Below are positions 31,315 to 33,972 of a DNA stretch of 64,000 nt, piece by piece (position 1 is the first letter of the stretch; each line of letters starts with the position of its first letter). Origin of the DNA: Psychromonas aquimarina ATCC BAA-1526. GTDB taxonomy: Bacteria; Pseudomonadota; Gammaproteobacteria; Enterobacterales; Psychromonadaceae. The stretch covers positions 1 through 64,000 of the forward strand of contig NZ_AUAM01000017.1 in the NCBI RefSeq assembly GCF_000428725.1, given 5' to 3'. A program made the translations under genes and the position numbers. A model generated the notes under the pieces. It was not told where the DNA came from, ran no database searches, and saw nothing but the letters and a program-made list of their open reading frames with translations.

Positions 31315-32061
31315 TTAATTAACTTTCATTTTCTTATTTTTCCAGCCGACAGCAAGCCCAGTGTCATAACGCAGATCGACATAATCGACTGCACTAATAT
31401 CATATTTGCCTGCTATCAACGGAAACACACTTAAAAAGCGCTGAATCCGATCCAGCTTCTGTTCCTGTCCTAAGCGCAGCTCAATACCATTTTTTAAAAT
31501 AATGGAACTGGCATTACGTTTATCACTGCTTAGCTTCGCAATTTCAAAGTGACTCACTTTTAACAGCTGATGAGCCTTCATATAAGTTGTTAATACTTCG
31601 CCGGCAAAGTCATCTTCGCCGTAAAGGGCCACGTATTCTGCTTCAACATCCTGCGGTGATACCGCAATTATCTCCGAGAAGCGGTTCAGCAGTGCTTTAT
31701 CATTCCACGCTGCAACAATTGACTGTTCAACAATATGTATCTTCAGCGTATCCGGCCAGCGTTTACGAATCGATGCTGAATAAACCCAGGGCAGACTTTC
31801 AAGCTGCTTCTGAATTTGTGCAATTTCCAGCGTAAAAAAGTTCAACCTGTCTTTCTGGTCGGCCAGTACTGCTCGTACATCGTCAGATGAAATATGCTCT
31901 CTTTCACCTGTTAACACTAAAGAGGTTAACGGCAGAGACTGTTCATCGGTCAGCCAGGTTTTTAATTTAAAATAACTGTTCTGTAATATATAAATTAAAG
32001 TGATAAAAAAAACTAAACTGACCCACTTGCCGAATTTTACCTTTTTTAATTTATTCCACAT
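31315..32061 (-). CDS. ftsQ: cell division protein FtsQ
   Basis: FtsQ is a bitopic membrane protein that nucleates the FtsQLB divisome subcomplex. One helix at about residues 12-30, a POTRA domain (L-P-L-T-S-L-V-L-T-G-E-R ... L-P-W-V-Y-S-A-S-I-R-K-R-W-P-D-T-L-K-I-H-I-V-E-Q), then the beta domain ending V-D-Y-V-D-L-R-Y-D-T-G-L-A-V. 248 aa. It starts four bases after the ddlB remnant, where the intact ligase gene would end. Confidence 0.95.
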   Translation of the reverse strand: MWNKLKKVKFGKWVSLVFFITLIYILQNSYFKLKTWLTDEQSLPLTSLVLTGEREHISSDDVRAVLADQKDRLNFFTLEIAQIQKQLESLPWVYSASIRKRWPDTLKIHIVEQSIVAAWNDKALLNRFSEIIAVSPQDVEAEYVALYGEDDFAGEVLTTYMKAHQLLKVSHFEIAKLSSDKRNASSIILKNGIELRLGQEQKLDRIQRFLSVFPLIAGKYDISAVDYVDLRYDTGLAVGWKNKKMKVN

Positions 32062-32065
32062 AAAA

Positions 32066-32434
32066 TCAGTGCGCCTGCCCGTTTAATAGCTGTGCAGTAT
32101 ATTCCAGTCCGCTAATCCAGGACTCAAGCAGCACTTTATTATCAAATTTAAATGCCTGCACAGGCGGCTCCGCATTATTTACCCTGCTCATGCTTGAGCC
32201 TTCGCTATCAGGCTTAACAATTACAGCCCCCGACAAGCTTGATATTATATCTTCTGATTGCTCAGGATTAAAGCCATCTTTGACTATGATTTGACAATTT
32301 ACCACCGCTAATTGATAACTTTGCCATAGCTGTTTAGTTTTGTATTTTTTCATGGCGCCGGCAGAGCTTATAACTGCACATTCAGCACCAGATCCTGCTG
32401 ATAAAACAGCGGCTTTAGCAAAATCTAAACTCAT
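32066..32434 (-). pseudogene. ddlB: remnant of D-alanine-D-alanine ligase ddlB (internal deletion, C-terminal half missing)
   Basis: A 122-codon open frame exactly where ddlB lies in E. coli (murC-ddlB-ftsQ). Residues 8-27 (A-A-V-L-S-A-G-S-G-A-E) match the Ddl N-terminus (A-V-L-L-G-G-T-S-A-E-R-E). The sequence then jumps to the central ATP-grasp part: K-T-K-Q-L-W-Q matches L-R-S-K-L-L-W-Q, V-I-V-K-P-D-S-E-G-S-S matches V-I-V-K-P-S-R-E-G-S-S, and L-E-S-W-I-S-G-L-E-Y-T matches I-E-K-W-L-S-G-P-E-F-T. About 60-70 residues are missing between these, and everything after L-N-G-Q-A is gone, including the Mg-binding Asp/Glu/Asn residues. It cannot be an active ligase. The frame is still open, so a product may be made, or the segment may only keep spacing and coupling to ftsQ. 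Confidence 0.85.
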
Positions 32435-32511
32435 TAATGTTCACTCATCATTTTTCTTTTTCATAATACAGTTCTGCCGCCGGTCTGGCTGCAGATCCAT
32501 ATATGAATTTA

Positions 32512-33972
32512 CTATTTGCTGTTCACTTGTTTCATTTTTTCAATGTCCAGCTTCAACTCTGCTAATGTTTTAACCACAGCACCTATATTACCGGCTCCCT
32601 GTGTCAGTACCAGATCACCGTCACCGATGATTTGTGCAAGCATTCCAGGCAGGGCTTCCGGGCTGGCAACAAAAATCGGCTCTTTATCACTGCGCTGACG
32701 AATAGTACGGCATAATGAGCGGCTGTCTGCACCGGCAATCGGCGTTTCACCGGCAGCATAAACATCCAGCAGCAGAAGCTGATCAACCTGCTCTAATACA
32801 TGGGCAAAATCATCATAAAGATCCCGGGTACGGGTATAACGGTGCGGCTGGTAAGCCATAACAAGACGCTTTTCCGGCCACCCTTCTCTGGCTGCATTAA
32901 TTGTTGCCTGTACTTCTGTCGGGTGGTGACCATAATCATCAACTAAGATTGCTTTACCGCGCCCCGTTTCAAATTCGCCGTACTGTTCAAAACGACGACC
33001 AATACCCTCAAACTCATTTAATGCATTTAAAATGGCTGCATCATCAATATCATCTTCCATCGCCACAGCAATCGCGGCGGCGGCATTCAATGCATTGTGT
33101 TTGCCGGGTAAATTTAAGTGAATTTTAAGATCTTCTTTATTAACGCGGTGAACTACAAACTCACTACGGTTAACACTTTGAGAAAAAGCAGAAATACGTA
33201 CATCAGCCTGCTCATGAAAGCCGTAAGTAACAACTTGTCGAGCAAAACGCGGAATAAGCTCTTCCACTACGGAGTCATCTAAACAGACAACAGCGGTACC
33301 GTAAAAAGGCAGATTCTGGATAAAGGTGACAAAAGTATCTTTTAATACTTCAAAATCCCCCTGGTAGGTATCCATATGGTCCGCTTCAATATTGGTAACC
33401 ACCGAAACCATAGGCTGCAGATGTAAAAAGGAAGCATCGCTCTCATCGGCTTCTGCAATTAAATAACGGCTTTGGCCTAATTTGGCATTGGTGCCGGCAC
33501 TGTTTAATAAGCCGCCGATAACAAATGTCGGATCTAAATCTGCCTGTCCGTAAATACTCGCAATTAAGCTGGTTGTCGTGGTTTTCCCATGGGTTCCGGC
33601 AACGGCCACACCATGTCTGTAGCGCATTAATTCAGCCAGCATCTCTGCACGGCGTACAACTGGAATTCTTGCCTGCTGAGCGGCTAATAACTCGGGATTA
33701 TCTTTATTAATTGCAGTAGAAACGACAACAACTGATGCGCCGTAAATATTTTCCTGCTGATGCCCGATAAAAATTTCAGCACCAAGTGAACGCAGACGGT
33801 TTACTACAGGATTAACCGCAATATCTGAACCGGTAATTTTGTAACCTTCGTATGCTAGTACTTCCGCAATACCGCCCATACCTGCACCACCGATGCCGAC
33901 AAAATGAATTTGTTTAACACGGCGCATTTCTGGAATCATGGTGCGTATTTGAGCTAGATTAATTTTTGTCAT
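32512..33972 (-). CDS. murC: UDP-N-acetylmuramate-L-alanine ligase MurC
   Basis: MurC adds the first residue (L-Ala) of the peptidoglycan stem peptide. In the 486-aa protein: the N-terminal Rossmann motif [11 protein letters not shown] near residue 23, ATP loop A-G-T-H-G-K-T-T-T near 123, E-A-D-E-S-D near 178, and D-D-Y-G-H-H-P near 348. Upstream of the ddlB remnant by 77 bases; follows murG. Confidence 0.97.

Follow-up and report, generated by a model that had tools for sequence, protein, structure and literature searches.

Results

The frame between murC and ftsQ is a remnant of ddlB

The window analysed here is a stretch of 64,000 nucleotides from Psychromonas aquimarina ATCC BAA-1526 (genome G000). 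An earlier reading made from the sequence alone had noticed an open frame of 122 codons between murC and ftsQ, and this frame exists, on the minus strand at 32066-32434. The features of the locus, listed in the direction of transcription, are as follows.

32512..33972, minus strand: murC, full length
32435..32511, minus strand: spacer of 77 nt between murC and the remnant
32066..32434, minus strand: ddlB remnant of 122 codons, with its TGA stop 4 nt 5' of the ftsQ ATG
32375..32434, minus strand: N-terminal piece of ddlB, codons 1-20, from alignment to the full-length ddlB of G018, G001 and G022
about 32374/32375, minus strand: junction of a 210-nt deletion, from the same alignment
32076..32374, minus strand: central ATP-grasp part, approximately Ddl residues 91-192, from the match to a solved chain and the orthologue alignment
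about 32191/32192, minus strand: private 6-nt deletion in the central part, in the window only, from the orthologue alignment
about 32160/32161, minus strand: shared 12-nt deletion in the central part, from the orthologue alignment
32069..32076 (approximate, the exact break being ambiguous), minus strand: junction of a C-terminal deletion of about 324 nt, from the orthologue alignment
31315..32061, minus strand: ftsQ, full length

The frame had been taken for a piece of D-Ala-D-Ala ligase (Ddl), and profile searches bear this out. It matched PF07478 with 33.8 bits (cut-off 24, E 3e-8) over positions 1-92 of 204, and NF002378 with 60.5 bits (E 1e-16), short of that family's cut-off of 243; the score for TIGR01205 (51.8 bits) was also far below its cut-off. 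The best match among solved Ddl chains was 5d8d (E 5e-12), in which remnant residues 21-120 lie on chain residues 91-192. The first residues of the remnant scored an insignificant 1.6 bits against the Ddl N-terminus in the solved chain, and the N-terminal piece is clear solely in alignment with Psychromonas orthologues. Similarly, PF01820, the N-terminal domain, was absent among the matches of the remnant at E<=1, and the full-length ddlB of G001 has it with 69.7 bits.

Measured against the full-length genes of G018, G001 and G022, the remnant has lost 210 nt (70 codons) after codon 20, in agreement with the proposed loss behind some 20 N-terminal residues, then 12 nt, and finally, ahead of the stop, about 324 nt (108 codons). 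The first two figures were taken from the alignment, and the third is the remaining length difference between the remnant of Psychromonas ossibalaenae (G006, described below) and the genes of G018 and G001. The sequence-only reading had the central ATP-grasp part followed by nothing; the central part has indeed been kept, but the last bases of the P. ossibalaenae remnant again resemble the ddlB terminus.

The remnant has the place, the start region and the central ATP-grasp sequence of the DdlB of the dcw cluster (NF002378 / PRK01372; PF01820 plus PF07478). However, it comprises 122 instead of about 307 residues, its score lies far below the family cut-off, and, of the marks of a functional DdlB, PF01820 and a complete C-terminal ATP-grasp domain with the metal-binding residues are missing and only the position between murC and ftsQ is retained. 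Since the N-terminal domain has gone, together with all that follows about residue 192 in an enzyme of about 306 residues, no ligase activity is expected of the remnant. The frame at 32066-32434 is thus confirmed as a leftover of ddlB between murC and ftsQ.

The state of the locus across Psychromonas

A search of the genus with the remnant found one matching place per genome in 24/24 Psychromonas genomes. Of these, 22 have a full-length ddlB frame between murC and ftsQ, of 306-340 codons from stop to stop, and the other two, the window genome and P. ossibalaenae, have the remnant. The murC stop is 921-964 nt from the ftsQ start in the 22 genomes, in three of which the ftsQ start was extrapolated, and 450 and 451 nt from it in P. 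aquimarina and P. ossibalaenae. Both remnants share the 210-nt and 12-nt deletions and, by remainder, the C-terminal loss of about 324 nt, and 6 nt more are gone in the window. Furthermore, the two frames end in different stop codons (TGA in the window and TAA in P. ossibalaenae) at the same distance, 4 nt 5' of the ftsQ ATG. In a tree of FtsQ and MurC the two species are sisters (100/100) within the genus; as the tree leaves the genus open at its deepest forks, the branching point of the pair is unsure, and two outgroup rows fill less than half of the columns.

The murC stop overlaps the ddlB start in all 22 relatives with full-length ddlB (TAATG in 19, ATGA in three), and the window has the 77-nt spacer instead. 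A tandem duplication of the murC/ddlB junction was considered as the source of this spacer and is not claimed: the window spacer fails against its own ddlB start, with 660 of 1000 shuffles as good. A hint of such a duplication is present solely in P. ossibalaenae, where 0 of 1000 shuffles did as well as the match between the first 40 nt of the spacer and its own ddlB start, and 14 of 1000 as well as the match to the ddlB start of G018. Comparisons of whole junctions yielded 44 and 7 of 1000, and no other spacer comparison was significant (lowest, 85 of 1000).

Drift of the remnant

Between P. aquimarina and P. ossibalaenae the remnant differs at 59 of 366 sites, so that it is hardly 'frozen', as had been suggested, and these differences are spread as 17/20/22 over the three codon positions. 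The pair has 72% amino acid identity, with NG86 dN of 0.161, dS of 0.262 and omega of 0.62, in contrast to omega values of 0.03-0.09 in six neighbours (ftsA, ftsQ, murC, murG, ftsW and ftsZ). Simulations of neutral drift gave ratios of non-synonymous to synonymous differences in line with the observed one (P 0.11 and 0.21; 400 runs accepted for each), and one segment that reads ESWISGLEYT in the window reads ESWISETGCT in P. ossibalaenae. These data support a remnant that evolves nearly without amino acid constraint between the two species. In the spacer between murC and the remnant, 24 of 71 aligned sites differ, and dS in the neighbours is 0.23-0.51; the remnant has therefore diverged less than the fastest neutral yardsticks. 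With intact relatives as the reference, the remnant codons gave omega of 0.07-0.17, but this comparison includes the time of a working ddlB and was left out of the argument because dS is saturated and several values could not be estimated.

Thus, by sequence and by position the locus corresponds to a full-length orthologue in relatives, parts needed for function have been lost (the N-terminal domain and the C-terminal part) and selection is relaxed. A stop or frameshift inside the frame, which is usual in decaying genes but is not required where deletions truncate the gene, is absent from both the window and P. ossibalaenae; the frame is still open, as the sequence-only reading had it, and this counts for a role of the open frame itself, which is weighed below. 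In simulations of neutral drift, neither frame acquired a stop in 3.6-9.9% of runs (nine settings, about 3500 runs each), which mildly favours selection for an open frame, in a remnant that was chosen for being open. Taken together, the checks that had been proposed (profile matches, dN/dS on the orthologous remnants and the state of this gap in relatives, full-length in 22/24 and partial in 2/24 within the genus) support the reading of a decaying ddlB kept in its original place.

A second D-Ala-D-Ala ligase

The sequence-only reading had also suggested that the genome be searched for a second complete ddl, and one is present. Another full-length D-Ala-D-Ala ligase is encoded at an unrelated locus (contig C24), is about 30% identical to DdlB and scores as a member of the NF002527 D-alanine--D-alanine ligases (PRK01966.1-3), with 434.9 bits against a cut-off of 310. 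The nearest solved chains are 6ll9 and 6dgi, the former aligned along nearly the whole length. Among the 24 Psychromonas genomes this ligase was found in P. aquimarina and P. ossibalaenae only, and the two copies are 95% identical with omega of 0.05, indicating strong constraint; in the other 22 genomes the matches were only 27-33% identical and were mostly the genomes' own ddlB.

In a tree that took in 37 of the 57 ligases of the NF002527 type found across the order, the pair lies inside another bacterial family, f6, grouped at 98/87 with G194, and starred branches force f6 to be split. This nearest row, G194, is flagged as a long branch of unsure placement, and hence the nearest neighbour of the pair is unsure; the fork of the group of f6 and f1 is drawn open. 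None of the genes neighbouring the window genome's ligase was seen beside the ligase in two f6 genomes examined over stretches of about 10 kb. The selD-like gene adjoining it is present in 8 of the other 22 Psychromonas genomes, where no such ligase was found in the 1.5 kb or less covered on each side; the next neighbours were not found either, so that no exact empty site for the ligase emerged.

Further ATP-grasp proteins were seen in these searches. G004 and G012 (L138 and L139) have a ligase 33% identical to the NF002527 one, in a frame of 388-389 codons, and keep a full-length ddlB. In the window genome, a protein of 387 aa at 1402-2565 of L002 (contig C4) matches PF07478 with 71.9 bits, and on contig C4 of P. 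ossibalaenae a frame of the same length gives a weak DdlB match.

Distribution of the two ligase types across the order

In a first sample of the order, an FtsQ match was obtained in 57 of 59 genomes. A model derived from 21 of the 22 full-length ddlB frames of Psychromonas served to class the 53 loci outside the genus; the window genome and three genus members came besides. A ddlB lay between murC and ftsQ at 41/53 of these loci and was missing at 12/53. An NF002527-like ligase, 48-71% identical to that of the window genome, was found for 11/12 loci without ddlB, the exception being G044, whose best ligase match was only 34% identical, and for 0/41 loci with ddlB, where the best matches were 34% identical or less.

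In a larger sample of 217 genomes of the order, which overlaps the first, the NF002527 type was found in 57, DdlB in 149, both in 0 and neither in 11 at the thresholds used (E<=1e-60 for the NF002527 type and E<=1e-50 for DdlB). When the 57 were searched for DdlB at E<=0.001, a close trace appeared only in P. aquimarina and P. ossibalaenae (66 and 60% identity). No ddlB remnant was seen in the other 55, whose matches reached 22-35% identity with a best E of 1.4e-34, and there is therefore no full DdlB among them. Three named Motilimonas genomes are without ddlB and one Aliidiomarina has it; the dcw clusters of Vibrio and Shewanella are not known to carry ddlB.

From this exclusion a simple rule can be proposed for the order: a genome would have either of the two ligase types, and none of the 217 sampled has both. 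The counts are phylogenetically clumped, as both types occur within just three families of the sample (f1, f6 and f25), where they sit in different genera or species, so that independent switches are few. The sequence-only reading had placed the remnant as an intermediate of the loss in other lineages. Although ddlB has indeed been caught in decay here, this looks like an independent loss in one species pair; what the losses elsewhere appear to share with this pair is the type of the replacing ligase.

Discussion

We consider it very probable that the locus is a xenologous displacement caught part-way, in which a foreign ligase of the NF002527 type took over and the native ddlB is decaying. 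The common ancestor of P. aquimarina and P. ossibalaenae would have gained this ligase at an unrelated locus; with the second ligase supplying D-Ala-D-Ala, the native ddlB of the dcw cluster would have lost its function, deletions would then have cut it to about 120 codons, and the remaining piece would now be drifting. As in other cases of xenologous displacement with decay of the native gene, a foreign equivalent is present at another locus. It is full length and under purifying selection, and its foreign origin is indicated by its nesting in f6, subject to the long-branch warning, and by its not being found in 22/24 genomes of the genus. We infer that the acquisition preceded and permitted the loss of ddlB, that the second ligase probably makes the D-Ala-D-Ala of the cell, and that the open frame of the remnant is mostly due to chance. 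However, the link between ddlB and the second ligase is not one of strict cause and effect, since G004 and G012 keep ddlB despite an extra ligase and G044 has neither ddlB nor the NF002527 type. An alternative order of events, in which ddlB broke first, could also apply.

Such an event, the decay of a displaced gene, is ordinary in kind, but related genomes document this one unusually well. Replacement by a foreign equivalent is mostly deduced from the end states; here a gene cluster that is very stable contains an intermediate, related genomes have ddlB in full, in part or not at all, and there is a candidate for the replacing gene. An extra D-Ala-D-Ala ligase has been described in piezophilic Colwellia, which are, like Psychromonas, gammaproteobacteria from the sea whose additional ligase lies close to variable parts of the genome; in the passages seen, however, it is an extra copy and not a replacement accompanied by loss of ddlB (PMC7542103). 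Among the matches listed for ddlB, dcw, Psychromonas and gene displacement, titles and the beginnings of abstracts, together with passages of PMC7542103, PMC3265435 and PMC8871954, describe no such ddlB remnant. What the present analysis adds is the replacing ligase as the probable cause and the mutual exclusion of the two types.

Whether the remnant still serves ftsQ is a more interesting question than the decay itself, and the locus lends itself to testing, in a natural setting, whether ftsQ expression depends on the upstream frame. The enzyme may be gone and the frame selected as a translated bridge, on which ribosomes leave murC, cross the remnant and re-start at ftsQ; frameshifts and stops would be purged and amino acids would drift. 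We regard this as unlikely, and give the same low credence to a combined course in which, after the takeover by the foreign ligase, selection whittled ddlB down to a translated spacer whose openness and stop position matter and whose amino acids do not. The constant distance of the stop from ftsQ despite different stop codons, losses (210, 12, about 324 and 6 nt) that are all multiples of three, and the small fraction of neutral runs in which both frames stayed open all speak for a bridge and against purely neutral decay. Close spacing is also common elsewhere, with the earliest possible ftsQ start no more than 15 nt from the ddlB stop at 34/42 ddlB loci outside the genus. However, the remnant was picked for its open frame, and hence the shared deletions are not independent evidence. 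A candidate chain of overlapping small frames through the spacer behind murC was rejected: with ATG starts, 378 of 2000 shuffles were as good in the window, which is not significant, and 97 of 2000 in P. ossibalaenae, which is marginal, and with other starts allowed the chain was weaker (886 and 278 of 2000, respectively). Furthermore, 11/15 loci that lack ddlB have a gap of 95-194 nt between murC and the earliest possible ftsQ start, and close coupling is therefore dispensable there. The window keeps the arrangement of a ddlB locus, its remnant ending 4 nt before ftsQ, and the end state shows that this arrangement can be given up. At the eleven loci with the wider gap (L086, L088, L091, L097-L100, L112, L054, L055 and L058), the in-frame start codons upstream of the part of FtsQ that aligns are all other than ATG.

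It is less likely still that the remnant DNA has been retained as the carrier of a promoter for ftsQAZ. In E. coli, ftsQ promoters sit within ddlB. The two species do not differ over 60 nt in the middle of the remnant, and this block contains on the ftsQ strand, by eye, TTTAAT and TATAAT separated by 17 nt, the first hexamer with 3 of 6 positions. However, this site is below the threshold of a consensus scan, which found three promoter-like sites in 32000-32600 (shuffled mean 1.4, sd 1.2), all on the plus strand, opposite to the direction of ftsQ; no site on the ftsQ strand of this interval passed. A new small protein with a role of its own, made from the remaining central ATP-grasp part, is very improbable: the open frame in two species, the retention of most of that part and an omega of 0.62 rather than 1 are in its favour, but the differences are even over codon positions, compatible with neutrality and include the segment quoted above. 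Nor is there support for a conserved family of about 120 aa with its own fold under purifying selection, an outcome that the sequence-only reading had named as contrary to decay together with the lack of a Ddl profile match; each genome of the genus has a single matching place, 22/24 of these lie in full-length Ddl frames, and the two remnants are drifting apart.

Divergence at the locus is patchy, and beside the remnant the beginning of ftsQ is notably similar in the two species. Its first 120 nt (31942-32061) differ at 1 site between the window and P. ossibalaenae and the next 626 aligned sites at 43, which may reflect either synonymous conservation or a recombination tract.
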